Origin: a virus
IMG/VR virus record: IMGVR_UViG_3300036835_000045
Coordinates: 1-42,896 of that record
Direction: 5' to 3' (one strand)
DNA length: 42,896 bases
This document shows positions 23,154 through 37,952 of the stretch, piece after piece; the first letter of the stretch is position 1; each line of letters opens with the position of its first letter. The notes below the pieces were generated by a model. It did not search any database, was not told where the DNA came from, and saw nothing but the letters and a program-made list of their open reading frames with translations. Both the position numbers and the translations under genes were made by a program.

Positions 23154-23196
23154 ATCAAAGCATACTTTTCCCGGCTTGTCAAGGCTTTTCTTTGAC
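23154..23196 (-). promoter_or_regulatory. Leftward promoter with shared operator (site a)
   Basis: On the minus strand TTGACA (23182-23177), a 17-bp spacer, then TTTGAT (23159-23154). The inverted repeat TGTCAA-N9-TTGAC (23177-23196) overlaps the -35. It drives the 33-residue membrane ORF and the recombination genes below it. Confidence 0.7.
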
Positions 23197-23205
23197 CCTA
23201 TACGT

Positions 23206-23244
23206 GAAAAGGGGAGAGGGAATTTCTTTCCCTCTCCCCTTTTC
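23206..23244. terminator. Bidirectional terminator
   Basis: GAAAAGGGGAGAGGGA (23206-23221) and TCCCTCTCCCCTTTTC (23229-23244) form a perfect 16-bp stem with a 7-nt loop and A/T-rich ends on both sides. It separates the 267-residue protein gene from promoter site a. Confidence 0.85.
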
Positions 23245-23304
23245 GGCCCCTACTGTCTAGTCAGAAAGGTGAATTAAAGAACTAGACAGTTTCAGTTGGG
23301 ATCT

Positions 23305-24108
23305 TTACTCCGTCCCGTTGTCATCATCCTCTTCGAGTTCGTCATCTTCTTCGACTTCCTCGTCGTCATCTGCAAGAGAAGGAGTCCGCAACTTTGCGGA
23401 GAGCTTCTTGTTGACGGGATCAGGAAGATCAACTTCAAACTCAGAAGGTGGATGCTCCAAATCAATTCCCTGATCTGCGAGGAATTGACGAAGTTCAGGA
23501 GTTTTCCATCCAAGCGGAGCACAAACTGTGTTCGCAATGTTTGAAAGAGTGTTGGACTTCTCGGGACGAGGTTCACCATCAATGAACCAATCGAATCCCT
23601 GGAAAACTCGCTTTCCACGCTTTCCACGAGCGCCAGTCCGCTTCTTCGGCTCTGGAATTCCAGAAATGTCTTGCTTGAACAGCTTAAGAATTCCAGCCAG
23701 AGCTTTGTATTCCTCCATCAAATCCTTACGGGCTTGCGTCCACTGAGCAACTTGCTCATCAGACGGCTTTTCCGTTTGGATTTCTTCTTGCGCCTTGACT
23801 TGTTCCGCCAAGTACTCATCAACAGAAGTGCTGAAATTGTCATTCAGGGACTTGATGATTCCCTTGAAAACTCCAGCGAGCTTTTCGGGATCTTCAATTC
23901 CCTTCAAAGCTGAAACAAGATTGTCCGCATTTGTGGACCAATCTGATTCGTATTGCTCTGCGAGCCTATTTCCAAGCGCACGCTTTCCTGCGGTTTCTGA
24001 GCCAGAAGCTGCATCAAGTTGCTCATCAAGTTGAGCAATCTCAGAAACTTTCTCTCTCAGAAGATCAGGGGAAACGGAAATTCCGCCTCCGCTAGACGTA
24101 TCTGACAT
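23305..24108 (-). CDS. Hypothetical protein with acidic tail
   Basis: A 267-residue protein. N-terminal two-thirds helical; a basic patch KKRTGARGKRGKRVF near the middle, then FDWFIDGEPRPEKS, and a very acidic C-terminus (DDDEEVEEDDELEEDDD). It is monocistronic: its own promoter (site b) lies just upstream and a strong terminator just downstream, so it is probably abundant. The basic patch plus acidic tail suggest nucleic-acid or histone-like binding, which is speculation; no family recognised. Confidence 0.75.
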   Translation of the reverse strand: MSDTSSGGGISVSPDLLREKVSEIAQLDEQLDAASGSETAGKRALGNRLAEQYESDWSTNADNLVSALKGIEDPEKLAGVFKGIIKSLNDNFSTSVDEYLAEQVKAQEEIQTEKPSDEQVAQWTQARKDLMEEYKALAGILKLFKQDISGIPEPKKRTGARGKRGKRVFQGFDWFIDGEPRPEKSNTLSNIANTVCAPLGWKTPELRQFLADQGIDLEHPPSEFEVDLPDPVNKKLSAKLRTPSLADDDEEVEEDDELEEDDDNGTE

Positions 24109-24162
24109 GGGTGTACTGCCTTTCGGGTAGTCGTGTGGTGCATGGGTCGAACCACTAGGGGC

Positions 24163-24205
24163 ATCATGCGCCTATGTTTCTAGGTTGTCAAGTCATTTCT
24201 TTGAC
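24163..24205 (-). promoter_or_regulatory. Leftward promoter with shared operator (site b)
   Basis: Minus-strand TTGACA (24191-24186), 17-bp spacer, CATGAT (24168-24163). Inverted repeat TGTCAA-N9-TTGAC at 24186-24205. A further GACTGA-ATA-TCAGTC palindrome starts at its upstream end. It drives the gene starting at 24108. Confidence 0.7.
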
Positions 24206-24233
24206 TGAATATCAGTCTTGTCAGGACAAACAG

Positions 24234-24296
24234 AATCCGCAATTATCGGACCTTGCTAGATATAGTTTGCAAACCGCTAGATATAGCTTGCGGATT
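24234..24296. repeat. Palindromic/direct-repeat cluster
   Basis: A 9-bp inverted repeat AATCCGCAA (24234-24242) / TTGCGGATT (24288-24296) encloses two near-identical 16-mers, GCTAGATATAGTTTGC (24255-24270) and GCTAGATATAGCTTGC (24276-24291). They are 21 bp apart and flank a GTTTGCAAAC palindrome. It lies upstream of promoter site b, between two leftward transcription units. Protein-binding or origin-like site; function unknown. Confidence 0.65.
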
Positions 24297-24321
24297 GTGT
24301 CTGAGAGTTTAGAAGGTATCC

Positions 24322-24681
24322 TCATGCTCCCTCGCCCTCTCCGTCGATCTGAGACACACTGCCAAGGCTCTCGGGCCATTCCCCGGCACCCACCCACGTC
24401 TGACCATGTGCTCCCTCCCTGGATTTCATTAACGATTCCCCTTTTTGATTTCTTACATCTTGTGGTGGAATACATTTACTTCCATCTTTATGAAGATCCA
24501 AGTTATTAGGAGTACTAAAATGTTCGTGACAGACAACACAATGAATCTCTTTTAATCCTCTCCACGATCTATGACAAACCCTACAATGTGTTCCCTGATG
24601 ATCTGTACCCCACCATCCATGTTCATTTGCATAAGCACAGGTAGTACATTCTAGATCTTGTTCTTCTGTAAACGTACTCAT
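24322..24681 (-). CDS. Double zinc-binding protein (FDXHR-like)
   Basis: A 119-residue protein with two likely zinc sites: C12/C15 with C33/C36, and HCVVCHEHFSTPNNLDLHKDG with C48, C51, H64 and C70. The second resembles the FDXHR-type zinc-binding motif common in actinophage proteins. The C-terminal 45 residues are low complexity. ATGA overlap with the upstream Cys-rich gene. Presumably binds nucleic acid or protein; no direct evidence. Confidence 0.7.
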   Translation of the reverse strand: MSTFTEEQDLECTTCAYANEHGWWGTDHQGTHCRVCHRSWRGLKEIHCVVCHEHFSTPNNLDLHKDGSKCIPPQDVRNQKGESLMKSREGAHGQTWVGAGEWPESLGSVSQIDGEGEGA

Positions 24682-25082
24682 AAACTCTCCGATAATCGCG
24701 AATGGAATTTCGTGGGTTCCACGGCGACATTCCCTTGTGGCGCAACGGATTTCTGGCCTACAGGGGCCATGATTTCATTTAGAGCTTTGCCAGACTTCAC
24801 CGGCCAAGTTAGTCGTTTCCTTGCCTGTAGCGAAGCAGCAACCAAGCCGTGATATTTCTGCCCTGGGTTTTCTTCTCGGAAACATCTCTGGCACAAAGTT
24901 TCCCACGGCAAACATTTATGTCCGAGACAACCTTCGCAACGACGAACATAACCTTCCCACACTAACCTATGAGGAAAGCAACAAGTACTACAAGTCCAAA
25001 GAAAATCATTCTTAAAGGTTAATTCGTCGGAAACTTGTCTTGTGACGTAATCCTGTTTCTTACAGCAGCAGTAAGTTTTCAA
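24678..25082 (-). CDS. Cys-rich zinc-ribbon protein
   Basis: A 134-residue protein with a dozen Cys in the first 75 residues (YCCCKKQDY, WTCSTCCF, RCEGCLGHKC, LCQRCF), consistent with two or three zinc ribbons. The tail is basic. Translationally coupled to neighbours by 4-bp overlaps on both sides. Unrecognised at family level. Confidence 0.65.
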   Translation of the reverse strand: MKTYCCCKKQDYVTRQVSDELTFKNDFLWTCSTCCFPHRLVWEGYVRRCEGCLGHKCLPWETLCQRCFREENPGQKYHGLVAASLQARKRLTWPVKSGKALNEIMAPVGQKSVAPQGNVAVEPTKFHSRLSESL

Positions 25083-25489
25083 GTCTTTAAATCTTCTGAA
25101 CTAATGACTTCTCGAATCCAGATTCTCATTTTGGCTGCAAGCTCAGGTCTTAGGTCAGCTCTATTATGATTAACAGAGAACTCTTTTCCCAAAGCTATAT
25201 CAATTATCTTATCAATTTGATTCCCAACCTTATCATATATAAGATTGGTTTGTTTCCGAATTTGAGGTCCAATTTCTTCAAGTTGAGTAGAAACTACTTC
25301 ATCCACCCTATTCTTAACCAAGAGCTTTACATCTTCACCCTTAAAGAGATTTTCTATCTCTTTGTGTTCTCTCTTAAGTTCCTTCAAGACAGAGTGAGCT
25401 TCACGAGTAGCTAACTTTAGCTCTAATATAGCATCTTCAAACTGCTTGATCTTTTGCTCTAGGTTTGTCAATCCTTGTGAATTACTCAT
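25079..25489 (-). CDS. Coiled-coil hypothetical protein
   Basis: A 136-residue helical protein; residues about 8-60 are a Leu/Glu/Lys heptad coiled coil (NLEQKIKQFEDAILELKL). The rest is also helical (LRPELAAKMRIWIREVI). Probably self-associating. No domain recognised. Confidence 0.65.
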   Translation of the reverse strand: MSNSQGLTNLEQKIKQFEDAILELKLATREAHSVLKELKREHKEIENLFKGEDVKLLVKNRVDEVVSTQLEEIGPQIRKQTNLIYDKVGNQIDKIIDIALGKEFSVNHNRADLRPELAAKMRIWIREVISSEDLKT

Positions 25490-25504
25490 AGGTTGTCCAA
25501 GTCC

Positions 25505-25837
25505 TCATAGATTATCCAAGTCATAGCCAAAGTCATCATCGCGAATAGAAACTCCCTTTGCTGTTTGCTTATCCTTGATCTTGTGGCAACTAGGACATAA
25601 CCATTCCAAGTTGTATGGATCGTTATCCCAGATATCTTTATTGATGTGATTAACTTGTAGCTGGTTGACTGTCCGCAAATAGGGTGCTGCAAGTTCTAAG
25701 TCCTTAGGAGCATCAGCAGGAAGTATTTTCGGTGATCTTCCACAATCGTTACAGATGTAAGGAACTTTGAGTCTAAAGAGAACATTTCGTCCACGTCTGC
25801 GCATTGTACTTCTTGGATCTTTAGGGTTGCCTTTCAT
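25505..25837 (-). CDS. HNH endonuclease
   Basis: A 110-residue protein with zinc ligands C29/C32 (ICNDCG) and C81/C84 (LCPSCH) around the HNH core: H64 in VNHINKD, N76 in NDPYNLEW and H85. The stand-alone small size fits free-standing phage HNH enzymes, either homing-type or packaging-associated. Here it lies among accessory genes far from terminase, so homing or host-DNA attack is likelier. ATGA overlap with the upstream gene. Confidence 0.85.
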   Translation of the reverse strand: MKGNPKDPRSTMRRRGRNVLFRLKVPYICNDCGRSPKILPADAPKDLELAAPYLRTVNQLQVNHINKDIWDNDPYNLEWLCPSCHKIKDKQTAKGVSIRDDDFGYDLDNL

Positions 25838-26076
25838 TTTCCCAAATACTTCTCCACAATCACTTTGCGCTTAGGATCACCAAGAACATGATGGTCACGA
25901 ACTACACCAACCACCTTGAACTTCGGTGGAGTATCGTCTGGATGAACATACTGAGTAATTCTATCCTTTAGGAGAACGTTAAGACGTTCTTTCGCATGTT
26001 CAGGGTTAGAAGCTACAATCATTATGTTTACAGTTGCACGTACCTCATATATATTCGTTTCATATTCTTTTGTCAT
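25834..26076 (-). CDS. Hypothetical protein
   Basis: An 80-residue alpha/beta protein (YEVRATVNIMIVASNPEHAKERLNVLL is its core, quoted in part). It starts only 2 nt after the tRNA-like gene, so tRNA 3' processing would leave an almost leaderless mRNA. Function unknown. Confidence 0.65.
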   Translation of the reverse strand: MTKEYETNIYEVRATVNIMIVASNPEHAKERLNVLLKDRITQYVHPDDTPPKFKVVGVVRDHHVLGDPKRKVIVEKYLGK

Positions 26077-26078
26077 AG

Positions 26079-26170
26079 TTCCGGGGCTAGGAATCGAACC
26101 TAGACTTCAGAAAAGCAGAAAGGCCCTAGAAACCAAACTTCTGCGTGCTTCCTATAAACACTACCCCGGA
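26079..26170 (-). tRNA. tRNA-like gene, type II, anticodon uncertain
   Basis: On the minus strand a 7-bp acceptor stem TCCGGGG/CCCCGGA, a D arm GTGT/GCAC with a GG-containing loop, and a canonical T arm CTAGG-TTCGATT-CCTAG are clear. No CCA is encoded. The 41 nt between D and T arms do not give a normal anticodon arm. One fold has CAGAA/TTCTA (one C-A mismatch) around GTTTGGT, which would give anticodon TTG plus a 23-nt variable arm. The alternative GCAGAA/TTCTGC stem has an 18-nt loop. Isotype therefore not assigned; possibly degenerate or repurposed. Confidence 0.7.
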
Positions 26171-26174
26171 GAGA

Positions 26175-26357
26175 CTACTGTTCCGATATGCAGATAATTC
26201 GTGCTGCATTATCAGATATCTTGTTGCAGGCGTCAAGCTTCTGATTATGGTGTATCAGGATGCTCAAAGAAACTATCAGACTTACTATCAAAATCGTCAG
26301 TAAGATCAGAACTACGATTTTTACTGATGAGTCCTTCGTTTGTATGCTCAAGTTCAT
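26175..26357 (-). CDS. Small single-pass membrane protein
   Basis: A 60-residue protein from the ATG at 26357 (AAGGGTGG just upstream). One strong transmembrane segment (IVVLILLTILIVSLIVSLSI), then a short cytosolic or external tail with two Cys. Its first 113 bp lie inside the 3' half of the zinc-ribbon gene in another frame. It ends 4 bp before the tRNA-like gene. Confidence 0.6.
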   Translation of the reverse strand: MNLSIQTKDSSVKIVVLILLTILIVSLIVSLSILIHHNQKLDACNKISDNAARIICISEQ

Positions 26358-26511
26358 CCACCCTTGCTTGCAAGTTCGCAATCAGGATTTGCTGAGCACG
26401 AACACAATTCCACCAATGCATGTGCGCCCTACGATTTTCATCATTAGGATCACGCACTGACAATTCGTCATCCTGAATAAGCACTCCACAGTTTGCGCAT
26501 GAATCTTCCAT
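26245..26511 (-). CDS. Zinc-binding coiled-coil protein
   Basis: An 88-residue protein from the ATG at 26511, which overlaps the upstream stop (TAATG). A longer TTG-initiated ORF is rejected because a membrane-protein gene occupies that space. C5/C8 (SCANCG) with H30-H32 and C36 (HMHWWNC) form a probable zinc site, followed by a coiled coil (LIANLQARVDELEHTNEGL) and an acidic Ser/Asp tail. Similar small proteins are common in actinophages; role unknown. Confidence 0.68.
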   Translation of the reverse strand: MEDSCANCGVLIQDDELSVRDPNDENRRAHMHWWNCVRAQQILIANLQARVDELEHTNEGLISKNRSSDLTDDFDSKSDSFFEHPDTP

Positions 26512-26633
26512 TAAAGCGACTGTTCCTTTCTTTTCTTGGCTTTCAAGTTCTGAAAGTGATTGTAGTACGTCGGTACAAGGATACAGAGAACCATAACAAG
26601 CCAGAGTATCCAATCTAGGGGAGTCGCCGTCAT
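26511..26633 (-). CDS. Small 40-residue membrane protein
   Basis: The ATG overlaps the previous stop (ATGA at 26630-26633), and its own stop overlaps the next ATG. One transmembrane helix (WILWLVMVLCILVPTYY) and a strongly basic tail (LKAKKRKEQSL). The perfect coupling on both sides makes it a real gene. Function unknown. Confidence 0.68.
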   Translation of the reverse strand: MTATPLDWILWLVMVLCILVPTYYNHFQNLKAKKRKEQSL

Positions 26634-26833
26634 TCTGGATTCCAGTCTCCAATTATTGTGAGCTTTCCGTACTCGACTGACACGTTTCGCTCATCAGTTA
26701 CTTCGCAGTACTCACCTATGAATTCACTAAGAGGCATTTCATCTTCCTCTACATCCGGTGTGTAAATACGGATTTGAACTTCCATCTCTGGATCAAGTCC
26801 TTCTAGATGTTCTTTCAGTTCACGGAGTTTCAT
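26630..26833 (-). CDS. Small conserved-type phage protein
   Basis: A 67-residue protein starting MKLRELKEHLEGLDPEMEVQ, a pattern seen at the start of many small phage proteins of unknown function. Then acidic beta-strands ending YGKLTIIGDW. AAGGATG lies 5 nt upstream of the start. Confidence 0.68.
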   Translation of the reverse strand: MKLRELKEHLEGLDPEMEVQIRIYTPDVEEDEMPLSEFIGEYCEVTDERNVSVEYGKLTIIGDWNPE

Positions 26834-26845
26834 GCTTCATCCTTT

Positions 26846-27124
26846 TCATTCATGGGTATTCAGAAATTCTCCAAGTTTATCTATCAAGGCTCCCACCTGT
26901 TCTAGATAGTTCACTTGAATAATCCCTGCCTCAACCTCGTCTAACCCCTCAGCTCTTTCTTCTGCTCCAAGGTAAGTAAAGAGGTCTTTCATCTGTTCAA
27001 CTGCTTTAGGATTACCTAAGTCTTTCTTTAGAGTATCGTGGTAGTAAACTTCCAAGGAATCTGTTATGAGAGAAAGCTCATTACCTGTCAAGGTAATGTT
27101 CCACTCTCTGTCATCACATATCAT
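26846..27124 (-). CDS. Hypothetical protein
   Basis: A 92-residue acidic helical protein (LSLITDSLEVYYHDTLKKDL; YLEQVGALIDKLGEFL). It overlaps the upstream gene by 11 bp. Unrecognised. Confidence 0.62.
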   Translation of the reverse strand: MICDDREWNITLTGNELSLITDSLEVYYHDTLKKDLGNPKAVEQMKDLFTYLGAEERAEGLDEVEAGIIQVNYLEQVGALIDKLGEFLNTHE

Positions 27125-27371
27125 TTTCTGCCTCTAGTATTTCTACCTCTGTCTGATACTCTTGTAGAGTTTCATTGGGCATCTCTCCATAAGAAGAAGT
27201 AACTGATCTAGGCATTGTGATTTCAAGATAAGGTATCTGACAAATACGTAGTATAGTTATTCCATCCACGGACACCCATACAACTTTGCCATCCTCACGG
27301 ATTGTTACATCTACTCCAAAGTTTGGAGCAGTTATATCAACTGCATCTCTCGGATCAACCTTTGGTTCCAT
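27114..27371 (-). CDS. Hypothetical protein
   Basis: An 85-residue acidic beta-rich protein (FGVDVTIREDGKVVWVSVDG). Its ATG overlaps the previous stop (TAATG at 27369-27373). Unrecognised, but tightly coupled within the operon. Confidence 0.65.
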   Translation of the reverse strand: MEPKVDPRDAVDITAPNFGVDVTIREDGKVVWVSVDGITILRICQIPYLEITMPRSVTSSYGEMPNETLQEYQTEVEILEAENDM

Positions 27372-27535
27372 TATACTGTCTTAACCTCCTGAATTTCTTC
27401 TTCTGTTGCACCGTAGTTACGGGCTTGTCGTTCTAGTATGTCAAGCTCATACTCTAAGAGGCTAAGCTGAGAAGTCAGCCTAGCCATTTCTCTTAGAGTC
27501 TGTTGCTTTCTGATTTCGTTATGACTCCTTGGCAT
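27371..27535 (-). CDS. Small coiled-coil protein
   Basis: A 54-residue ORF coupled on both sides by TAATG overlaps. It is one continuous amphipathic helix (REMARLTSQLSLLEYELDIL) with an acidic C-terminus. It fills what would otherwise be a 160-bp gap. Probably a dimer; function unknown. Confidence 0.65.
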   Translation of the reverse strand: MPRSHNEIRKQQTLREMARLTSQLSLLEYELDILERQARNYGATEEEIQEVKTV

Positions 27536-28089
27536 TAATTCATGCTCCTACAGGTATCAACACAATCTGCGCCGTGTAAGTGTTGATGGCAGAAAACTAT
27601 AACTCCGCCACCAACTCCCATCTCAACTTCCTGTCGTCCATCCTTCAAGAGTTCAGGCCAAGAATCACCTGGACGCAAGTAGTAATGAATAGTCTTGAAG
27701 ATCGGAACCTCAGGCTTTGTCTCGATCAAGTTATTGGACGGATCTTTTTCGGCTGGCTTACGTTTCTTGGATCTAGGTTTCTTTAAGTTTCCTGTAGCGT
27801 CAGGAACCTGTCCCGCTGTAGCCTTGTCGAGAAACTTCTTCATATCCTTGAAGTCTTTGAACTCTGGAATACCTGCCATTGGCTTCACCTTTTCTGTATG
27901 ACCAGGAGCAAGTTTGATTGTCTCTGTTCCATCTTCTTGCATCCCTCTAATATAAACTGTATCACATCCGAAGCACCTACCAACTACTCCTACAGGGGCT
28001 TCGTAGAAGCGAATTGATCCTGAGAACCCACACGCACAATCTATATGAGCATTAGGATCAGGGTATTTCTCTAGCTGTTGATAGACCAT
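27535..28089 (-). CDS. Hypothetical zinc-ribbon protein
   Basis: A 184-residue protein. The N-terminal ribbon has CACGF and RCFGCDTVY (two CxxC/CxC pairs), then a basic linker (KKPRSKKRKPAEK) and a C-terminal domain ending in FCHQHLHGADCVDTC, a second possible metal site. Probably a nucleic-acid-binding protein. Its start abuts the upstream gene at 28089. Confidence 0.68.
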   Translation of the reverse strand: MVYQQLEKYPDPNAHIDCACGFSGSIRFYEAPVGVVGRCFGCDTVYIRGMQEDGTETIKLAPGHTEKVKPMAGIPEFKDFKDMKKFLDKATAGQVPDATGNLKKPRSKKRKPAEKDPSNNLIETKPEVPIFKTIHYYLRPGDSWPELLKDGRQEVEMGVGGGVIVFCHQHLHGADCVDTCRSMN

Positions 28090-28487
28090 TACTCACTTGC
28101 TCCGTTTAGTTTCCTGAGGATTCCGTCTACGAAATCTACAGGGGACATATCGTGGTCGCCGGCCATAACTTCTTCCATAGCCTGTTCTCTAACATCTTTC
28201 AGACTGAACAAGATTAACTCAAACTCATTATCAGTCAGAGTTTCTAGGACATGAAGTTGGGAAGCAATAGCTCCAATAGTTGAGAGAGCTATTCTAATAG
28301 TTTCTGACATTTGAGTACAGGCATCTATGATACTTGTCTCAATTGAGTCAGCATCCATCTTCTCCGTGTCTATCTCTTCCTTGAATTTCATTCCAAGTCC
28401 ATGATAGACATTCATCATGTTGAACTCTAAAATCTCGAGTTCTTCCTTTGGAGATTTCATGCCATCTTGATCGTAGGGCTTACTCAC
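28089..28487 (-). CDS. Helical hypothetical protein
   Basis: A 132-residue acidic helical protein. I chose the GTG at 28487, which overlaps the helicase stop (GTGA) with AGGGA upstream; an ATG at 28460 is the alternative. Sequence features: long helices (ETSIIDACTQMSETIRIALS), no motif recognised. It is coupled to the helicase, so it may act with it. Confidence 0.65.
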   Translation of the reverse strand: MSKPYDQDGMKSPKEELEILEFNMMNVYHGLGMKFKEEIDTEKMDADSIETSIIDACTQMSETIRIALSTIGAIASQLHVLETLTDNEFELILFSLKDVREQAMEEVMAGDHDMSPVDFVDGILRKLNGASE

Positions 28488-30652
28488 AGCAAATCCCTGA
28501 GAACATCGGCCCATTCGGAACCGTTACGAAGTTCACTATCTTCCATGATACCCTCGATCATAGCTTCCTTTTCTTCCAGCTTTGCTGCAATAAACTGATC
28601 GACAGAGTTCTCACACTGAATGATATGGATGGTAACAGCGTCTTTCTGACCCTTACGGTGAAGCCGGTCCTCTGCTTGCTCATTGAACTTCGGGTTCCAC
28701 CAAAGATCAAGGAAAATCGCATGGTTAGCTCCACCAGTCCAATTATCAGACTTTTGAAGGTTCAGACCCTCGCCACCAGTTTTCATGTTGACAAGCAGAA
28801 CTTGAATCTCTTTGTTCTGAAATGCTGATTCTATCTGCTCGAACTTGCTCGAATTCTCACCAGCGAGAATTTCTGCCGACCATCCATTTTTTGCGACTCT
28901 GCGCTTCATTTCATGGAGTGGCTCGTTAAACTGTGAGCTAAAGACTACAACCTGCTCTCCAGTATCTACAAGTTGCTCGACAATATCCATTGCCTCATCA
29001 ATCTTTGCAGACTCGAAGCAATCCAACTGACGAAGAGTTCCATCCATCTGCTTTACCTTAATACTGGCAGGGATGATGTTGACTTGACGAAGCCGAGTAA
29101 GTTGAGCGAGAAGTGAAGTGATGTTAATCTTCGCATCCTTGTTATCATCCAAGTAAACAAAGAAGTCATCACGAAGAGCTTGGTAAATTGCATCTTGCTC
29201 AGGACCACGCTCGACGTAACGAAACTCACGAGTCTTATCAGGAAGTTCAGGCAAGCACTCTTGCTTCGAGTGACGGATCACCTGATCTTTCATCGCCGTA
29301 ATAATCCGCTCCCAATCGACTTGAACAAGAGGGTTACCGGAATCATCTTTCTCACCCCAACCGAAGCAATACTCACGCTCGAACCTACGAACATCAGGGA
29401 AACGAACGGGGTCAAAGATATGAAGATAAGCCCACATCTCTTTAGGATGGTTCTGAATCGGAGAACCCGACAGAGGCAGGATGAACTTTGCCTTCTTCGA
29501 GAGTTCAACAGCGTTCTCAAAGATCTTTGTCGGGTTGCTATTAGCTCCGCCCTTAAGTTTGTGAACTTCGTCCATCACTACAATATCCCACTCGTAATCA
29601 AGGATCTTTGAAGTGTTCATCATATCGTAGTTTGCGATGACCATTGTGTTCGTGGCGTAAGCAAGCTGCAATTGGAAGTCTCGTGCAACTTTGTTGCCAT
29701 CCATAACAATAGCTTCACGCTCTTCGTTCCACCGACGAATCTCTTTGAACGTAGAGAACCGAAGAGTTTTCTTTGTGAGCCACAGGATATGAGGCAGGCG
29801 ATCGTACTTCTCGTAGAACAAAGGGATGATGATGTCGAAGAAGAAAGCACTCTCGGCTGTCTTACCAAGACCCATATCGTTAGCGTTCAGCACACCCTTC
29901 TTGCCAGCAAGAAAACGTGAAGCCATGAAACAAACATCATCCCACTGGTAATCGAGGATCTTATCATCCCACGGCTTACCCTTCCGAAGTTCCTCGTACT
30001 GCTTCTTTGTTTCTTCGAAAAGCTGACGGGCTGCGATGTTCTTCAAAGTAAGACCATGCAAACGCTGTTGGTTCTCAATCTCTGTTTGCAGAGCAGAGAG
30101 TTCAGTCTGAAGCTTTGCAGCCTCTGCCATGGAGTCTTGTCTCGCTAGGCGCATTTCCTGAATACGCTTCTGGAAATCCTCAAACAGAAGTTCCTCTTCC
30201 TTTTCTGACTCTTGGATCAAGTTGATGAGAGGATCGTAGAGAGACTGAGTAGCTTTAATTTTCGTCTGGATTTCAAGTATCCGTTTGTTAATCTCCGCAA
30301 GCTCAGCGTACTCTGGATCAGTTTCCTTAGCTTCGCTGACTGTAGCTTCACTAGTTGTAGAGAAATCGAAGTTCACTACAGGGAGTTCCTCTACAGGAGC
30401 AGGCTCGAAAGTTTCCAGCTGAGCTTTGTTGGAAGCATCTGATCCAGCCTTGCGAGCGCAATTCAGGATCGCCTTAATTTGCCCCGGCGTGAAGCTTGAC
30501 TTGTTCTTCATATCCAGCATGAAGCTAAAGTCACCATCGTAGAGCTTGACGTAAGTTTCGGCTCTCACGGACCAGTAGTTATTCACGTCGTTCTCAGTGA
30601 AACGAGCGTGAAGTGAAGTTTCCTTCTCGATTTGTTCCTTGGTCAGTTCCAT
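28484..30652 (-). CDS. SNF2-family DNA helicase/translocase
   Basis: A 722-residue SF2 protein. An N-terminal extension with a long coiled coil (about residues 110-200) precedes the motor. Walker A DMGLGKT lies at 259-265, the Walker B box DEVH at 361-364, motif III at LSGSPIQN and motif VI in QAEDRLHRKGQ near residue 660. GGEGLNLQ precedes motif VI as in Swi2/Snf2 proteins. Such phage enzymes act as replication or remodelling helicases. It lies in the transcription unit from promoter site c. Confidence 0.9.
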   Translation of the reverse strand: MELTKEQIEKETSLHARFTENDVNNYWSVRAETYVKLYDGDFSFMLDMKNKSSFTPGQIKAILNCARKAGSDASNKAQLETFEPAPVEELPVVNFDFSTTSEATVSEAKETDPEYAELAEINKRILEIQTKIKATQSLYDPLINLIQESEKEEELLFEDFQKRIQEMRLARQDSMAEAAKLQTELSALQTEIENQQRLHGLTLKNIAARQLFEETKKQYEELRKGKPWDDKILDYQWDDVCFMASRFLAGKKGVLNANDMGLGKTAESAFFFDIIIPLFYEKYDRLPHILWLTKKTLRFSTFKEIRRWNEEREAIVMDGNKVARDFQLQLAYATNTMVIANYDMMNTSKILDYEWDIVVMDEVHKLKGGANSNPTKIFENAVELSKKAKFILPLSGSPIQNHPKEMWAYLHIFDPVRFPDVRRFEREYCFGWGEKDDSGNPLVQVDWERIITAMKDQVIRHSKQECLPELPDKTREFRYVERGPEQDAIYQALRDDFFVYLDDNKDAKINITSLLAQLTRLRQVNIIPASIKVKQMDGTLRQLDCFESAKIDEAMDIVEQLVDTGEQVVVFSSQFNEPLHEMKRRVAKNGWSAEILAGENSSKFEQIESAFQNKEIQVLLVNMKTGGEGLNLQKSDNWTGGANHAIFLDLWWNPKFNEQAEDRLHRKGQKDAVTIHIIQCENSVDQFIAAKLEEKEAMIEGIMEDSELRNGSEWADVLRDLL

Positions 30653-30950: not shown

Positions 30951-30993
30951 AGCATAATCTTTTAATCGGACCTTGTCAAGGCATTTCTTTCAC
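30951..30993 (-). promoter_or_regulatory. Leftward promoter with shared operator (site c)
   Basis: Minus-strand TTGACA (30979-30974), 17-bp spacer, TATGCT (30956-30951). The operator is TGTCAA-N9-TTCAC, one base off the consensus arm. It drives the leader ORF and helicase operon. Confidence 0.7.
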
Positions 30994-31007: not shown

Positions 31008-31730
31008 TCAGTTGTCTGGGTCAGCTTCTAGATTTTCTTTGGCCAATTCTTTGGGGTTGCTCAACATTTTCTTGGTGTCTGCCACACTCTTGTTATCCAT
31101 TGAGGTTCGGTATCGAGTGTTTAGTATACTCAGGCGTTCTTCCGTGTTGGGGTATTTGAACCCTTCCTTGCGTAAGAGGTTCAAGACATGGCGGTTATCT
31201 TGGTAGATGGGAAGCTCGAGGATTTGTTTTAGGAAGTTCCCGAACTTCATGTATTCCTCGTAAGCCCATTCCATGTTCTTACGAATTTCTTCGGAAGTTT
31301 GTCCTTCTACAGGGGTGTCTTGCTCGGCTTGTAAAGCCCGCTGATAAATTCTCCCAAGCCCCTGACGAATTGAATTCTGCATAGCTTGTGCTATATTTCT
31401 GCCTAGGTAACCTATAACCTCCTCGAAGTTAAGTTGCTGCCTGCCAACTTTGACTCGAATAGTTGGATCCTCTAGATCTTCTAGGTTGATCGTGCATTTA
31501 TAATAATTCTCCCCGCCAATCTTTTTCTCATCCAGCATACCAATCTTGACAAGTGGTTTGATGTATTGATAAATGGACTGATATGAAACTCCTTTACGGG
31601 TAGCTAGTTGTTTAATCGTCATTCTGCTAGCTTGACAATTCAATAATATCCATACATCAGTCTTTGTAAGTGTGATTCCAGACTCCATTAGTGCTTCAAA
31701 GTACGTAATAACTGCCTCATTCTCATCCAT
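31008..31730 (-). CDS. Winged-helix transcriptional regulator
   Basis: A 240-residue protein. Residues about 20-79 form a MarR/ArsR-like winged HTH: LTKTDVWILLNC, recognition part MTIKQLATRKGVSYQSIYQY, then the wing MLDEKKIGGENYYKC. The remainder is helical (LNFEEVIGYLGRNIAQAMQ) and may oligomerise. It is the first gene of the leftward block. Its start codon lies 6 nt after the -10 of promoter site d, so it is predicted to be leaderless and may bind the operator there (autoregulation, inferred). Confidence 0.78.
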   Translation of the reverse strand: MDENEAVITYFEALMESGITLTKTDVWILLNCQASRMTIKQLATRKGVSYQSIYQYIKPLVKIGMLDEKKIGGENYYKCTINLEDLEDPTIRVKVGRQQLNFEEVIGYLGRNIAQAMQNSIRQGLGRIYQRALQAEQDTPVEGQTSEEIRKNMEWAYEEYMKFGNFLKQILELPIYQDNRHVLNLLRKEGFKYPNTEERLSILNTRYRTSMDNKSVADTKKMLSNPKELAKENLEADPDN

Positions 31731-31736: not shown

Positions 31737-31779
31737 AGCTTAGAGTAACTTTTTCTGGATGTCAAGAGGTTTCTTTGAC
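31737..31779 (-). promoter_or_regulatory. Leaderless leftward promoter with shared operator (site d)
   Basis: Minus-strand TTGACA (31765-31760), 17-bp spacer, TAAGCT (31742-31737), then CCCCTC and the ATG of the regulator at 31730. Inverted repeat TGTCAA-N9-TTGAC at 31760-31779. The -10 is weak, but the spacing equals that of the other sites. Confidence 0.62.
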
Positions 31780-32152: not shown

Positions 32153-32239
32153 TAAAAAAGCGACCGCGTCCTGGGCGGCGCGGTCGCATTTCCGTTCGTT
32201 GTCGAACGGAAATGCTTCCCCCGGCCGAAGCCGGGGGAA
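32153..32239 (-). terminator. Triple hairpin with U-tract ending the 291-residue gene
   Basis: In minus-strand order: TTCCCCCGGC/GCCGGGGGAA (10 bp), ATTTCCGTTCG/CGAACGGAAAT (11 bp) and GCGACCGCG/CGCGGTCGC (9 bp), the last followed at once by TTTTTTATTT. The final hairpin is a textbook intrinsic terminator. Confidence 0.88.
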
Positions 32240-32244: not shown

Positions 32245-33120
32245 TTACTGCTTCGGCTTGCCTTCGATGGCAAGAATTCCCGTCGGGAATTCGTGAGCGT
32301 AGTACTTCATGCTTGCCGTTACCTCGTGGCCTTCATCCTTAAAGACCTTTCGGATGCCAGACCAGTCGATGACGAAGCCCTTTCGGAAATCACTCACGAT
32401 GTCGTGAGCAATATCGCTCGGCAACTTATCAACGATCGGTGCACCGTTCCAACTAAACCGCAGGTTGGAATTCATGGCGGCCCGACCGCTCGGGCTATCC
32501 GAAATTTCTCTTGCGAGGTTAGAAAGTCTAGGGGAGAACTTACCCTTGACAATCTCGCCGCCTTGCTTCACGGGGTTAAGCGGGAATTCCGGCTCACCGT
32601 AACTATCTCCGCTCTTACTGTGCGGCACGGCGTCAGGGTCCTTCTGAACGACCCACGAATAAAGCTGGCGGATCAATTCGCCGAGGGACTTAGCGGTTTC
32701 CCGTTTCGTCTCGTAATCCTCATCGGTCACCTTGACAGGCTGCGATTCAGCCTTGACCTTATTGATCCAATGATCTCGCTCGTTTAGGGCGTCAGTCTTA
32801 AGTTCCGACACGGCTTCTACGAGTGCGAGAATCGTGCGAGGATTGTCGTCTACGGTCTGGTAGAACAATTCCCGAACCTGAGACTTGAATTCTCGCACAG
32901 TGTTGGCAACTTCTGGCTCGGCTTGTGTGATTCCGAGTAGGAATTTCTTAAGTTCGGAGTCTTTAACCTCCGCTTTATCGGCATCACCGGTAAGTTGCGT
33001 GTTAATGCTCTCGTATTCGGCACGCAAGACTTTAAGTGTGTCGAAGTTGATAGCGTCAAGTTGGATATTGTGCCGAACCATAAGGTCTAGCACGGACGTT
33101 TCCGAAGTTTCTTCGGACAT
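32245..33120 (-). CDS. Hypothetical protein of the GC-rich island
   Basis: A 291-residue protein; ATG preceded by AAGAAAGGTGAT, a near-perfect actinobacterial ribosome site. Acidic helical N-terminal half (LDAINFDTLKVLRAEYESI), then a segment SDSPSGRAAMNSNLRFSWNG and a C-terminal alpha/beta part. No family recognised. It sits alone between a long structured leader and a strong terminator, with codons visibly GC-richer than the phage core genes, so it may be an acquired, independently expressed cargo gene. Confidence 0.75.
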   Translation of the reverse strand: MSEETSETSVLDLMVRHNIQLDAINFDTLKVLRAEYESINTQLTGDADKAEVKDSELKKFLLGITQAEPEVANTVREFKSQVRELFYQTVDDNPRTILALVEAVSELKTDALNERDHWINKVKAESQPVKVTDEDYETKRETAKSLGELIRQLYSWVVQKDPDAVPHSKSGDSYGEPEFPLNPVKQGGEIVKGKFSPRLSNLAREISDSPSGRAAMNSNLRFSWNGAPIVDKLPSDIAHDIVSDFRKGFVIDWSGIRKVFKDEGHEVTASMKYYAHEFPTGILAIEGKPKQ

Positions 33121-33356: not shown

Positions 33357-33440
33357 CTTGCGAATCAAACATATGTTCGCTTGATTTATCAAGCGCACAT
33401 ATGTTCGATTTAATAATGAGACTCATTCTCGATTCGCAAG
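33357..33440. repeat. Dyad region with two SOS-box-like repeats
   Basis: An outer 10-bp inverted repeat CTTGCGAATC (33357-33366) / GATTCGCAAG (33431-33440) encloses ACATATGTTCG at 33369-33379 and 33397-33407 and a CGCTTGAT-TT-ATCAAGCG stem (33378-33395). Read on the minus strand the first repeat is CGAACATATGTTTG, one base from the Gram-positive SOS box CGAAC-N4-GTTCG. Confidence 0.65.
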
Positions 33441-33462
33441 CCATGAAGCTAAGGATCAGTTC

Positions 33463-33533
33463 GCGACCGCACGATGCCTGCGGCGTGCGGTCGCATTTGG
33501 AAAAACTCTCCCGGCCCGGATTGACCGGGAGAG
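33463..33533 (-). terminator. Two hairpins after the 71-residue gene
   Basis: CTCTCCCGG/CCGGGAGAG (33506-33514 with 33525-33533) is followed on the minus strand by TTTTT, an intrinsic terminator. Beyond it lies GCGACCGCACG/CGTGCGGTCGC (33463-33473 with 33484-33494), one of three related GCGACCGC hairpins in the island. Confidence 0.82.
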
Positions 33534-33561
33534 CTTTCCATCATGGCGAGAGTTTAAGGCG

Positions 33562-33777
33562 TCACCACCCGTTCCCGTTTGCGTTCTTTGTCTCGGTGAG
33601 AACTTCGACGATGCGGTTGAGCTTCGCAAGCTCGTTCTCTACCGTGTAGATAGAAACAATCTTGCCACAAGCCGTGGCCAGAACTCTCGCTTGCTGCGAA
33701 ACAAGCTCGGTCAAGGCCGCCTCAACAATTCGGGTTTCTGAATCGGTCTTGCTGAGATGCTGCGATTGGATTGCCAT
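33562..33777 (-). CDS. Small hypothetical protein of the GC-rich island
   Basis: A 71-residue helical protein (ETRIVEAALTELVSQQARVL ... VENELAKLNRIVEVLTETK), probably a coiled-coil dimer. Excellent ribosome site AGAAAGGTGA upstream of the ATG, within a 17-bp leader identical to that of the ORF at 30883. It has its own promoter and terminator. Family not recognised. Confidence 0.7.
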   Translation of the reverse strand: MAIQSQHLSKTDSETRIVEAALTELVSQQARVLATACGKIVSIYTVENELAKLNRIVEVLTETKNANGNGW

Positions 33778-33824
33778 GATGTTTCACCTTTCTAGTCTGG
33801 CGAGTCGTTCTCGCCGACAAGATC

Positions 33825-33853
33825 AAGATACAGGATCGGCGGATACTTGGCAA
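33825..33853 (-). promoter_or_regulatory. Promoter of the 71-residue gene
   Basis: Minus-strand TTGCCA (33853-33848), 17-bp spacer, TATCTT (33830-33825). A hairpin GGCGAG/CTCGCC lies in the 5' leader. An inverted repeat ATGGTCC/GGACCAT (near 33853-33884) abuts the -35 and could be an operator. Confidence 0.6.
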
Positions 33854-33884
33854 TGGTCCAAACGGATCATTTGATTCGGACCAT

Positions 33885-33940
33885 ACAAATGTTCGCCGCA
33901 CGTATGTTCGACAAACAAATGTTCGCTTGATAAATCAAGC
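33885..33940. repeat. Three iterons at 15-bp spacing plus hairpin
   Basis: ACAAATGTTCG (33885-33895), ACGTATGTTCG (33900-33910) and ACAAATGTTCG (33915-33925) repeat with an exact 15-bp period. The last copy runs into GCTTGAT-AA-ATCAAGC (33925-33940). The 26-bp unit at 33915 is a near copy of 33369-33394. Confidence 0.75.
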
Positions 33941-33964
33941 AAATGAAGCTATGTGAATCAAATT

Positions 33965-33995
33965 GCGACCGCGCTAACAGGTGCCGCGCGGTCGC
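33965..33995 (-). terminator. GCGACCGC-type hairpin after the 129-residue gene
   Basis: GCGACCGCGC (33965-33974) pairs with GCGCGGTCGC (33986-33995), a 10-bp stem. Only a weak T-rich run (AATTTGATT) follows on the minus strand. Third copy of the island's hairpin family. Confidence 0.65.
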
Positions 33996-34036
33996 GTTGG
34001 GCAAACTTTCGTCTGCCTCAACGCTCGAGCTTTAGT

Positions 34037-34426
34037 TCAGGATGAGATTGCGTTGTGGATGAAATCTCCCAGCACTTCGATCTGCTTGCAGAAATTCTCC
34101 GCACCGTAGCCCGGAGACTTCAACCACGAAACAAGTTCGGCTTCACCGAACCGAACGACGGTTTCGTGAGAAAGTTTGCCGTCGGTCAACTTGGCGTGAG
34201 GACCGTACCCTGCCCACGGCCGAGGAAATTCCTGAACGACGATAACTTCTCCCCTCTCATAGAGACTGTCCCACGTTGCTACGTTAGAGAAGATGGCGAA
34301 CGAAATGATGTTCGCAATGTCATCACACAAGATGGTGTAGTCGGCGAATGAGGCGAGGTAGGTTCCGTCATATGTTGGACCTTCGAGAGAAACGATTTCG
34401 AAGTATGTTGGACTCGGGTAGAACAT
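34037..34426 (-). CDS. Hypothetical protein of the GC-rich island
   Basis: A 129-residue protein with AAAGGA upstream of the ATG. Alpha/beta by eye with several aromatic residues (YFEIVSLEGPTYDGTYLASF) and a C-terminal helix (ENFCKQIEVLGDFIHNAI). No domain recognised. Transcribed alone from a promoter with a TATCGG palindrome; a good candidate for a cargo (moron-type) gene. Confidence 0.7.
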   Translation of the reverse strand: MFYPSPTYFEIVSLEGPTYDGTYLASFADYTILCDDIANIISFAIFSNVATWDSLYERGEVIVVQEFPRPWAGYGPHAKLTDGKLSHETVVRFGEAELVSWLKSPGYGAENFCKQIEVLGDFIHNAISS

Positions 34427-34465
34427 CGGGGTTCCTTTCGGATGAGGGGTTACTGTCTTGCACTT

Positions 34466-34486
34466 AGTATATCGGCACGCCCGATA
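34466..34486 (-). promoter_or_regulatory. -10 element with overlapping palindrome
   Basis: Minus-strand TATACT (34471-34466) overlaps the perfect inverted repeat TATCGG-CACGC-CCGATA (34470-34486), placed like a repressor operator about 40 bp before the gene at 34426. No convincing -35 seen. Confidence 0.5.
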
Positions 34487-34499
34487 GAAACCTTAGAAA

Positions 34500-34775
34500 G
34501 TTTCTGTGTGAACTTTGTCACCCCGAACTCTAACCCTCTAGTTAAGGTTGAGGCTTGGCGGCGCTGAGAATCCCTAAACTCTTGCGGCTCTCAGCTTATG
34601 GCAGCTTTAGCCAAGTCGTTCGCTCGCTGAGTTTCGCGACGGAGCGAAGCGGAGGTGGTGTAGGGGTATATGTACAGTAATTAATACTTAGACTAATCAT
34701 AGATCAACTGGACACCCAAAGACCTAGTATATAAGGTGTATCCCAAGACCGTACCAAGAGAAGGATTTTAGACTA
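34500..34775. other. Non-coding divergent region with nested stems and tail-fibre promoter
   Basis: No gene seen. A nested structure has outer CTTGGC (34554-34559) / GCCAAG (34610-34615) and inner GCTGAGA (34563-34569) / TCTCAGC (34589-34595). A second stem is TTCGCTC (34619-34625) / GAGCGAA (34642-34648). Downstream, TATATAAGG near 34728 is a likely -10 for the tail fibre. TTAGACTAAT occurs at 34688-34697 and again at 34768-34777 across the start codon. A small RNA or control region is possible. Confidence 0.5.
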
Positions 34776-36665
34776 ATGCCATACAGTCTACAAGATTTGA
34801 TGTACGCGTACTTCGCTCCTACACGCTTAGGTACTCTAGATGATAACCTAAGACAATTTTACCAGTCGAAGTACGATCAAGGACTAAACGCCTCGAATGA
34901 TACGGGAGGATCAGGAACTTCACTACCTCCTGGCGGAGCTACGAATACTGTACTCACCAAGAACTCTCCTACAGATCAAGATGTTTCTTGGAAGGCAGTG
35001 ACAGGTATCCCCCCTGTAGGAGGTTCGACGGGGTACGTTCTTACAAAGCAGAGTACAGCGGATTACGATTTTATCTGGCAAGCTCCCTCTACACCAATTA
35101 ATCAGAGTATTTCAGCCAGAACAGCAACGACAGCTAACATCACCTTAAGTGGAACGTTTACTGTAGATGGTGTACCACTTGTTTTAGGTAATAGAGTTCT
35201 GGTTAAGGATCAGACAGATCAGACACAGAATGGACTTTATACTGTAGCAAGCGGAGCATGGACCAGAACGAATGATCAACTGTTAGGTTCAATAATAAGT
35301 GTGCAGGAAGGTACAATTAATGGCGATGTTATCTTCATGTGTACCACAAATGCTACCATCATCCTGGGTGTTACTTCAATAGTTTTCAGTAGGGTAGCCG
35401 CATCAGGTCTGAGGGATTTGAAAGATGGAACGTGGACACAAACGGATGCATCAACTACGGACACAATTCGTGTCCAGCTACGTCCACAAATAGGTTTCGA
35501 TTCATGCATAGTATCAAGCAATGCAATCCTGATGTGTGCTGACTTAGCTACAACCTTTGCTCTACCGGCTGCCACTTACAATAACGGAACTGGTGGTGTG
35601 GGAGCATCCTTGACGGCCACAACTAACGGAGCACTAAGTGTTGATGCTAAGTCCCCTGTAGCAGGGGACATGATTTTGGTAAAGAACCAAGCGAACCTTT
35701 TCGAGAACGGTGTCTACACAGTTAATGCTCCCGGTGATGCTTCCAACCCGTTCATCCTAGTTAGGCACGTTAACTTGGATAGTGGTGATAAGTTCGCCAG
35801 GAACGTGCTGATTTACGTGTCAGATGGCAACGTGTTCCAGGGTTCACTTTTCAGGGTTGCCCCTGTAGGAACGACAACCACAATTGCTACAGGCACAACT
35901 AACATCATATTTAAGACGATTGCGCATCCTGATGCTGCTCCCGGTGATGTATGCTGGAACTCTGAACGAAACATACGAAGGTTCGCAGAAGATTTCGAGT
36001 TGTTTGCTACAGCAGTAACAACGAACGCTACCCTCTTAAGTGGTATAGTCACACCTATGTACGCTTACCTTACGGGGGCTGGATCTCAGGTAACGCAAAC
36101 TGGAACTGCTGATTTGTTGCCAGGTGTCGCCCAAATAGAGACAGGCACGACGGCTACCGGGTACGGAGCAATTCAGTTCGGAAACCTAGGTTCTATAATT
36201 ACTGCGGGTAGGGCGTTCAGGTTTGGTTGTAAATCAAAGATTACAACTCTCACAGTTCCAGCATCTCAGGCGTTCACTACTCGTTACGGGTTCATGGATA
36301 ACGTGGGAATAAACCAGGGGACCCCACCTACGGCGGGAATTTACTTCGAGGCTAATGCTGATGGTTCTAATTGGAAGTGTATTTGTAACCACGCAAGCAC
36401 ACCTACAGTAGTAGATACAGGAATTGCTCCGATCACAGGTTCACAGCCATTCGCAATTTATTGTGATGATAGTGGAGTAGCTTGGTTCTATTTGGGAACT
36501 AATGCTCCGTGGAGTATTAGTACGAACTGGCCTACAGGTTCAGATTCCCTTGGTTGTGCGGCACAAATTACCAAGACTGTTGGTACGACAACTAGATCCA
36601 TTAAAGTGGATTACATGTCGGCTTGGATACCGGAGACTCGTGGCAACATGAACATGCTACCATGA
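34776..36665 (+). CDS. Tail fibre / tailspike protein
   Basis: A 629-residue Thr/Gly/Ala/Ser-rich beta protein. The N-terminus (MPYSLQDLMYAYFAPTRLGT) is a probable virion-attachment part. Two copies of a fibre repeat occur: TVDGVPLVLGNRVLVKDQTD ... NGLYTV (about 125-160) and a second with GDMILVKNQANLFENGVYTV (about 290-315). This repeat is common in phage fibres. The C-terminal 200 residues look like a lectin-like jelly roll (AIQFGNLGSIITAGRAFRFG). AAGGA lies 10 nt upstream. The ATGA overlap with the SGNH hydrolase gene indicates a joint role in receptor handling. Confidence 0.82.
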   Translation: MPYSLQDLMYAYFAPTRLGTLDDNLRQFYQSKYDQGLNASNDTGGSGTSLPPGGATNTVLTKNSPTDQDVSWKAVTGIPPVGGSTGYVLTKQSTADYDFIWQAPSTPINQSISARTATTANITLSGTFTVDGVPLVLGNRVLVKDQTDQTQNGLYTVASGAWTRTNDQLLGSIISVQEGTINGDVIFMCTTNATIILGVTSIVFSRVAASGLRDLKDGTWTQTDASTTDTIRVQLRPQIGFDSCIVSSNAILMCADLATTFALPAATYNNGTGGVGASLTATTNGALSVDAKSPVAGDMILVKNQANLFENGVYTVNAPGDASNPFILVRHVNLDSGDKFARNVLIYVSDGNVFQGSLFRVAPVGTTTTIATGTTNIIFKTIAHPDAAPGDVCWNSERNIRRFAEDFELFATAVTTNATLLSGIVTPMYAYLTGAGSQVTQTGTADLLPGVAQIETGTTATGYGAIQFGNLGSIITAGRAFRFGCKSKITTLTVPASQAFTTRYGFMDNVGINQGTPPTAGIYFEANADGSNWKCICNHASTPTVVDTGIAPITGSQPFAIYCDDSGVAWFYLGTNAPWSISTNWPTGSDSLGCAAQITKTVGTTTRSIKVDYMSAWIPETRGNMNMLP

Positions 36666-37255
36666 TTTACTCGAACGGTAAAGCCGTAACCTTTGATGGT
36701 CAGTCACTTAATGTAATTAACGGGTTCCCTGGTAAGTTAATGCTTCCTTATTACCCGCATGTCCAGTACCGGAACCCCTCAGTGGGCTCTACGAGTTGGA
36801 CCACTTTAACTTTGAACGCACCAAAGAGAACGTTCATTTACTGTACAGGACAATTCAACGTCATGGTTATGAACGGAGGCCAGTCTGATCTAAGCCCTGT
36901 AGTGAATGGTGGTGAGGGCAACACTGGTGCTCAGTTATACTCTGATGAAGTAGTATATGCTAACATGGCTAGAGCAGTAGGTTACCAAAAGATAGCTACA
37001 GTTACCATAGTTCCAGCTACCACATTCTATAACATACCACCGGCAGATCAGAACAGGCTAGATTTCAATACTTTAGTAAAGGCTGATGCATCTCATGCTT
37101 TTGATCTTGTTATGGATTTAGCATCAGATAGCCAATTGTCAGACCCGAGTGGGCCTATGTACTTAGATGGTTTACATTGGTCGGTTGCTGGTTGTAACTA
37201 CGTTGCATCACTTTTCGCTGCCAACCCTACGTTTAACAGTTGGTTATCGAATTAG
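36662..37255 (+). CDS. SGNH/GDSL-family hydrolase
   Basis: A 197-residue enzyme from the ATG at 36662 (4-bp overlap with the fibre stop). Block I is TFDGQSLN with nucleophile S15, a GGQSD stretch (72-76) stands where block III GxND is expected, and block V is DGLHWS with D169 and H172. This is the carbohydrate-esterase-like SGNH pattern. Next to a tail fibre it probably deacylates host surface polysaccharide during adsorption. Confidence 0.78.
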   Translation: MIYSNGKAVTFDGQSLNVINGFPGKLMLPYYPHVQYRNPSVGSTSWTTLTLNAPKRTFIYCTGQFNVMVMNGGQSDLSPVVNGGEGNTGAQLYSDEVVYANMARAVGYQKIATVTIVPATTFYNIPPADQNRLDFNTLVKADASHAFDLVMDLASDSQLSDPSGPMYLDGLHWSVAGCNYVASLFAANPTFNSWLSN

Positions 37256-37364
37256 TTGCACATAGCCTGCAAATGTCATCCTCGTTAAGATCGTCTATCT
37301 TAACGAGGAAATGACATTTAAGACAGCGCTTCCATAGAAGTGCGTCTTTCCAAGTGTTTTTCAT
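37233..37364 (-). CDS. Small zinc-ribbon protein
   Basis: A 43-residue ORF from the ATG at 37364 (an in-frame ATG at 37382 would add six residues). RCLKCHFLVKIDDLNEDDIC with RLC gives CxxC-x14-CxxC, a typical small phage zinc ribbon. It follows the MazG-like gene by about 30-50 bp and overlaps the 3' end of the SGNH gene on the other strand. A long perfect hairpin lies within it, and the ribosome site is weak, so the ORF is likely but not certain. Confidence 0.55.
   Translation of the reverse strand: MKNTWKDALLWKRCLKCHFLVKIDDLNEDDICRLCATNSITNC
37271..37319. terminator. Long hairpin between convergent genes
   Basis: AAATGTCAT plus CCTCGTTAAGAT (37271-37291) pairs with ATCTTAACGAGG (37297-37308) and, after a 2-nt AA bulge, ATGACATTT (37311-37319); loop CGTCT. 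21 base pairs in all. It lies just past the SGNH stop and probably ends transcription from both sides, although it also lies inside the small zinc-ribbon ORF. Confidence 0.75.
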
Positions 37365-37414
37365 GTTGAGCGTGATGAACATGCCATCACACTACACCTT
37401 AGCTCTCTGCCCTA

Positions 37415-37702
37415 CTAGCTCTTTAGTTGTGCAAGGGCATCCACTAGATCAATTCGATGGCGAGCGGCGAACTCAAAGACTAGCAAAAGGATTTGCGCAA
37501 GTTCGATGGGAATACCGCTCAATTCTCCTTTATCCGTTGTCATAATATCTTGGAACGGCCAGCCATAGTCAAACATGATTTTCAAGTTTGCTACTGACTT
37601 TACCAGTTCATCTTGAATTTCAGGTTCCTCGCATTCACGAGGTTTTCTGAGAGAAGCTACAACTTCTCCTATGGAGTCGTAGTTAGTCTCCATCATTAGC
37701 AT
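37415..37702 (-). CDS. MazG-like protein
   Basis: A 95-residue protein. The C-terminal part GIPIELAQILLLVFEFAARH, followed by RIDLVDALAQLK, matches short phage MazG-like proteins, where the usual text is GIPxELADVLI...GIDL. The metal-binding Asp of ELAD is Gln70 here, so hydrolase activity on (p)ppGpp or NTPs may be lost or changed. GAGGA precedes the ATG, and it overlaps the upstream gene by 20 bp. Confidence 0.55.
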   Translation of the reverse strand: MLMMETNYDSIGEVVASLRKPRECEEPEIQDELVKSVANLKIMFDYGWPFQDIMTTDKGELSGIPIELAQILLLVFEFAARHRIDLVDALAQLKS

Positions 37703-37880
37703 TATCTTCCTCCACTAATTTCCAGTTGGGTTCTATTGTTACATCTAACTTGACGTGTGGTGTTTGGTACTTGATCTTTTCGAGGGCGTTCTCTAACCTT
37801 CCTTGTGCTCGTAACTTACTACTAGCCTCAACTGTTACATCTATTAGTAACTTGGTTTTCCATACGTCACCTAAGGCCAT
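37683..37880 (-). CDS. Small hypothetical protein, leaderless
   Basis: A 65-residue protein (beta-helix-beta by eye; LLIDVTVEASSKLRAQGRLE). Its ATG lies 5 nt after a consensus TATATT -10, so it should be translated from a leaderless mRNA. First gene of a three-gene leftward operon. Family unknown. Confidence 0.65.
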   Translation of the reverse strand: MALGDVWKTKLLIDVTVEASSKLRAQGRLENALEKIKYQTPHVKLDVTIEPNWKLVEEDNANDGD

Positions 37881-37885
37881 GCCCT

Positions 37886-37952
37886 AATATAACATAAAAT
37901 TCTCCCCTTGTCAAGACATTTGTTTGACATCACACTGAAATAATGGTATACC
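37886..37952. promoter_or_regulatory. Divergent leaderless promoter pair with symmetric operator (site e)
   Basis: Leftward: TTGACA (37914-37909), 17 bp, TATATT (37891-37886), then 5 nt to the ATG at 37880. Rightward: TTGACA (37924-37929), 17 bp, TATACC (37947-37952), then 6 nt to the ATG at 37959. The two -35 boxes form a perfect TGTCAA-N9-TTGACA inverted repeat. One bound protein could control both operons. Confidence 0.82.

Follow-up and report, generated by a model that had tools for sequence, protein, structure and literature searches.

Predicted leftward promoters with A-rich upstream blocks in an uncultured phage of a probable actinobacterial host

Genome setting and the five intergenic sites

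The window analysed here is the whole of the 42,896-base IMG/VR virus record IMGVR_UViG_3300036835_000045, an uncultured phage genome, and our subject is a family of five intergenic sites in it that share the motif TGTCAA-N9-TTGAC. The rightward genes of the window comprise the terminase and presumed structural functions, and the leftward genes encode a DNA polymerase, a primase/helicase, a Sak4-like annealing protein, an exonuclease, and a helicase. Its best annotated relatives are the uncultured MW202795, with two annotated WhiB genes, Arthrobacter phages such as GurgleFerb, and Cellulosimicrobium phage DS1; together with the WhiB gene of the window, they point to a host that is probably actinobacterial. 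In the nearest relative found (IMGVR_UViG_3300036826_000023, 43,007 bp, hereafter G001), the helicase, polymerase, and terminase are 80%, 88%, and 89% identical to those of the window, and the DNA identity is mostly 68-82%. A megablast search of the region against isolated phages and a search against Rfam gave no match.

An initial annotation had read the five sites as the operator/promoter family of a dimeric regulator. The sites indeed lie where it placed them and all five are located between genes, with exact copies at 23177, 24186, 31760, and 37909 and a copy with one mismatch at 30974; the copy at 37909-37929 is a full 21-bp palindrome (TGTCAAGACATTTGTTTGACA). Considering 11 fixed bases and two strands, we estimate that ~0.02 exact matches would be expected by chance, against the four seen. 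When two mismatches are allowed, the motif count in the window rises to 23, versus 17.8 expected from shuffles, an ordinary number that limits the signal to these five sites. Each of them carries, on the minus strand, TTGACA followed after 17 bp by a -10-like hexamer, again as annotated. Control of most transcription units by the family had also been suggested. This is borne out in part: the sites suit the leftward genes of replication and recombination, and the divergent one precedes the terminase, but no family site occurs in the leftward island at 32.1-34.4 kb or the rightward unit at 34776-37255; the late genes are also faced by one divergent promoter (37924, plus strand).

The predicted promoters on the minus strand are built from the same parts. 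The one at 23154..23196 has an A-rich block (AAAGAAA, 23193-23187), a -35 element (TTGACA, 23182-23177), and a -10 element (TTTGAT, 23159-23154), and would serve the leftward genes from ~23.1 kb (exonuclease, Sak4-like protein, primase/helicase, and DNA polymerase); its orthologues lie at 6605 in G001 and at 2993 in a further relative, G005. The promoter at 24163..24205 (block 24202-24196, -35 24191-24186, -10 CATGAT 24168-24163) has orthologues at 5595 in G001 and 1734 in G005 and precedes gene 23305-24108. A third, at 30951..30993 (block 30990-30984, -35 30979-30974, -10 TATGCT 30956-30951; orthologue at 41844 in G001), lies before a small open reading frame (ORF) and the helicase gene 28484-30652, and that at 31737..31779 (block 31776-31770, -35 31765-31760, -10 TAAGCT 31742-31737; orthologues at 41016 in G001 and 1129 in G010) leads to the predicted leaderless start of gene 31008-31730. 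The last one, at 37886..37928 (block AAACAAA 37925-37919, -35 37914-37909, -10 TATATT 37891-37886), leads to the predicted leaderless start of gene 37683-37880, is kept in G001, G010, G011/L314, and L315, and forms a divergent pair with a putative rightward promoter on the plus strand at 37924..37952 (-35 TTGACA 37924-37929, N17, -10 TATACC 37947-37952) directed to a predicted leaderless start at 37959. By eye, the left arm of the other four sites is not followed by a -10 at 17 bp or by a rightward gene, which speaks against its being a rightward -35 there.

The distances between the -10 and the start codon in the window and in G001 are 54 and 55 nt for gene 23305, 67 and 69 nt for the small ORF before the helicase gene, 6 and 8 nt for gene 31008, and 5 and 6 nt for gene 37683, and their conservation gives independent support to these sites being promoters. 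The start codons at 31730, 37880, and 37959 sit 5-6 nt past the -10 hexamers, the first two in a similar way in G001, and these genes are probably leaderless. Leaderless genes fit an actinobacterial host.

Conservation of a directional unit

The unit that relatives of the window phage conserve is directional, AAAGAAA-N3-CTTGACA-N17-(T/C)NNNNT. It is found at the same five syntenic places in G001 and is shared by six further orthologous promoters in G005, G010, G011, and L315, the A-rich blocks being looser in the more distant phages. Across these 16 promoters (five from the window, five from G001, and the six orthologues), belonging to six phages, there is no variation in the TTGACA hexamer, the -36 C, or the 17-bp spacer length (16/16 each), nor in the final T of the -10. 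Between the window and G001, columns -46 to -40, -36 to -30, -12, -11, and -7 are identical at four or five of the five sites, whereas no conservation is seen in the upstream flank (mean identity 34%), in the three bases that separate the block from -36, or in the spacer. A position weight matrix (PWM), trained on the same ten sites that it scores, gives 27-34 to the window and G001 sites and no more than 18 to any site in shuffled versions of the two genomes, and it detects in G001 exactly five sites above 25 bits, all of them syntenic with those of the window. We also scanned IMG/VR for AAAGAAA-N3-CTTGACA-N16-18-TAnnnT; at least 120 stretches match, a figure that we do not use as a count, and 63 of the 83 among the matches listed have the 17-bp spacing. 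A generic promoter scan (19 found versus 21.7 expected) does not separate the sites from background and is not used as evidence.

The left arm of the motif has no such history. Its GTC, at -49 to -47, occurs in 4 of the 16 promoters, all four in the window, where the triplets read GTC, GTC, GTG, GTC, and GTC, against TCG, ACC, TCC, TTC, and TCG in G001, and TGTCAA at the 9-bp spacing is present in none of the 11 orthologous promoters of the five relatives. Within the window, two adjacent GTC columns are identical in all five sites, for which P is ~6.5e-4 among 40 flanking columns, although these columns were chosen post hoc. The six-base symmetry is complete only at 37909, the T that mirrors the outer A of TTGACA (column -50) being unique to that site, and even there the arm spacing, 9 bp in the window, is 26, 18, 15, and 15 bp in the relatives. 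A dimeric repressor that binds the palindrome at all five sites and acts as a genome-wide switch, the interpretation first proposed, would suit the four exact copies and the near copy, all intergenic, and the one perfect palindrome, but it becomes extremely unlikely given that in relatives the TGTCAA arm is either absent or placed at another spacing. Thus, the promoter half of that interpretation stands, with the -35, spacer, -10, and start distance all conserved, and its operator half does not.

At the divergent site, all five genomes having a close 37959-type gene keep the leftward promoter together with a rightward-facing CTTGAC or TTTGAC (TTTGAC in the window). In the window, the rightward hexamer at 37924 is a proper -35 for the 37959 start, whereas in the four relatives CTTGAC falls within the spacer, at 7-9 nt from the -10. 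The rightward element is about one helical turn closer to the -10 in the close relatives than in the window.

Host-type promoters and rival readings

Considering sequence, position, spacing, conservation, and gene layout, we think it likely that the five sites form a promoter family for host RNA polymerase carrying the housekeeping sigma factor, endowed with proximal UP-like elements. Each promoter would offer this polymerase an intact TTGACA as -35 with a C before it, an unvarying 17-bp spacer, and a recognizable -10, and AAAGAAA at -46 to -40 would most likely act as a proximal UP element for its alpha subunit. Leftward transcription of the replication, recombination, and small early genes would then be strong, and no phage sigma factor would be needed; for all five promoters, we infer the use of the host polymerase, the binding of alpha, the timing, and the strength from the DNA. 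The apparent palindrome would come from the GTC before the A block, which in one phage alone mirrors the GAC of the -35, and at 37909 from two divergent -35 elements placed back to back. The uncultured actinobacteriophage thus probably takes over host transcription by means of repeated near-consensus promoters and leaderless genes; this reading removes the proposed genome-wide repressor switch and offers a promoter pattern usable for finding transcription units across this phage group.

The position of the block argues for this interpretation. AAAGAAA or AAACAAA occupies -46 to -40, where proximal UP elements lie, in all ten window and G001 sites. As a control, we collected 138 phage promoters from contigs picked by CTTGACA-N17-TATAATA alone, ignoring the upstream sequence. 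Their A content peaks at -45 to -40, and 36% of them have at least five A in -46 to -40, compared with 4.5% of random 7-mers and 6-15% further upstream; by comparison with them, the block of the window phage is in both kind and position what phage promoters commonly carry. Adenines at -41 to -43 are critical in the proximal subsite of rrnB P1 (PMC4390567). The five promoters resemble sigma70/sigmaA promoters with a proximal UP subsite, such as phage Mu Pm and Escherichia coli rrnB P1, in TTGACA, the 17-bp spacer, the -10, and A-rich DNA near -43, but the window phage repeats one letter sequence, AAAGAAA, at five places, for which a function in the actinobacterial host is presumed. Several points weigh on the other side: substitutions between A and T should do little harm to a plain UP element, whereas nine of the ten window and G001 copies read AAAGAAA to the letter; GTC at -49 to -47 is nearly fixed within the window; the control promoters are AT-richer than the window phage; the transcription starts are predicted; and the host is known just as probably actinobacterial, and alpha contacts with UP elements there would be an extrapolation.

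Some of these points would be accounted for by a phage regulator, either of two candidate proteins discussed below (encoded at 37959 and 31008), that reads (GTC)AAAGAAA and/or CTTGACA non-palindromically, overlapping the -35. In its favor, AAAGAAA is conserved to the letter, GTC is specific to the window, and all five genomes retain before the 37959 gene a further CTTGAC, which reads TTTGAC in the window, even where it is off the -35; the 31008 protein, too, has diverged as might a regulator whose site had changed. However, unrelated phage promoters likewise tend to have the A block and the C at -36, the best match of the 31008 protein is a DnaD-like helicase loader, and no such site was found away from promoters, except the one at 37909, so that we regard this regulator as unlikely. 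More specific, and quite improbable, is a phage helix-turn-helix (HTH) protein that reads the directional GTCAAAGAAA-N3-CTTGACA and activates or represses all the leftward operons, its recognition having drifted between related phages as -49 to -47 changed and the promoter core stayed fixed. Activation of the WhiB type, in which a protein like WhiB7, attached to region 4 of sigmaA, reads an A-rich block just before the -35, can be envisaged since WhiB7-regulated mycobacterial promoters also have an A/T-rich block directly upstream of the sigmaA -35, and since the window contains a WhiB gene (14466-14747; PF02467, 2.2e-11) with homologues in G001 and G005. We nevertheless find this hypothetical activation very unlikely: WhiB7 uses an AT-hook on its AT-rich motif and the phage WhiB, by eye, ends without one, its gene closes the run of structural genes, and the motif is missing from MW202795, which has two WhiB genes. 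The phage WhiB is 65-66% identical in G001 and G005.

The initial annotation also likened the sites to the operators and stoperators of mycobacteriophage L5, with which they share a TGTCAAG run over the -35 and a distribution through the genome. This comparison does not hold. What we take to be the asymmetric 13-bp L5 stoperator consensus (GGTGGMTGTCAAG) has 24 matches in the window at up to three mismatches, versus 19.1 expected, and none at zero or one mismatch. A monomer binds each L5-type site, an asymmetric 13-mer that occurs over twenty times per genome, also in intergenic regions away from promoters (PMC9283540), whereas the sites of the window are all promoters placed before genes. Our best reading is that the five sites are neither dimer operators nor L5-type stoperators but mostly ordinary promoters; the GTC restricted to the window and the displaced second CTTGAC at 37909 are two small points in favor of a phage-specific regulator, which is nonetheless unlikely.

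Candidate regulators and other elements

The two proteins proposed as regulators have features that could suit such a role, but nothing links either of them to the five sites. The one encoded beside the terminase genes (37959..38507, plus strand) is a tandem HTH protein of the Cro/CI type and a candidate regulator. Six of seven homologues match HTH_3 (best 1.1e-6), although the window copy itself does not. Its AlphaFold2 (AF2) model, with a predicted local distance difference test (pLDDT) score of 54 at first and 89 once distant homologues were added, retrieves with Foldseek uncharacterized proteins of Microbacterium phage Shocker and Arthrobacter phage GurgleFerb (E 5e-7 and 8e-6) and, in the PDB, weak matches to SinR, HigA, and 434 Cro domains, none with E below 0.001. 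The matched GurgleFerb protein, of 168 aa, has the length of the gene 3 product and is probably that protein; gene 3 is preceded by TTGACA-N17-TACGGT and starts at a leaderless ATG, the same layout as that of the window's 37959 gene. GurgleFerb (Jasminevirus) also shares the genome layout, with rightward structural genes ending in WhiB and leftward replication genes, but its intergenic promoters do not have the AAAGAAA block or the TGTCAA arm.

The second protein (31008..31730, minus strand), downstream of the 31760 promoter, is a predicted winged-HTH or DnaD-like helicase loader (phrog_186, 8e-5) with weak HTH matches below the Pfam cut-offs. It is only 27% identical to its G001 counterpart (L020:2076-2765), whereas other proteins are 60-89% identical, which suggests that it has been replaced or changes fast. 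No viral relatives of this protein were found with it as query.

Other repeated elements occur among the leftward genes. CGAAC-N4-GTTCG, which we take to match the LexA (SOS) box consensus of Gram-positive bacteria, is clustered at 33366-33407 and 33882-33925 in a non-coding island between leftward genes, with counterparts in G001 (38292-38403 and 39429-39510) and G010 (3057-3148). The window contains five near matches versus 0.3-0.7 expected, G001 eight (four exact), and G010 four (one exact). Being kept in relatives, this palindrome is more plausible than TGTCAA-N9-TTGAC as a clustered operator or an element of an origin. Three similar hairpins, GCGACCGC...GCGGTCGC (32160-32187, 33463-33494, and 33965-33995), each lie directly downstream of one leftward gene (32245-33120, 33562-33777, and 34037-34426, respectively), have counterparts in G001 at 38258, 39340, and 40566, and are possibly terminators. 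A single tRNA-Gln gene (anticodon ttg) is located at 26078-26170 among small leftward genes.
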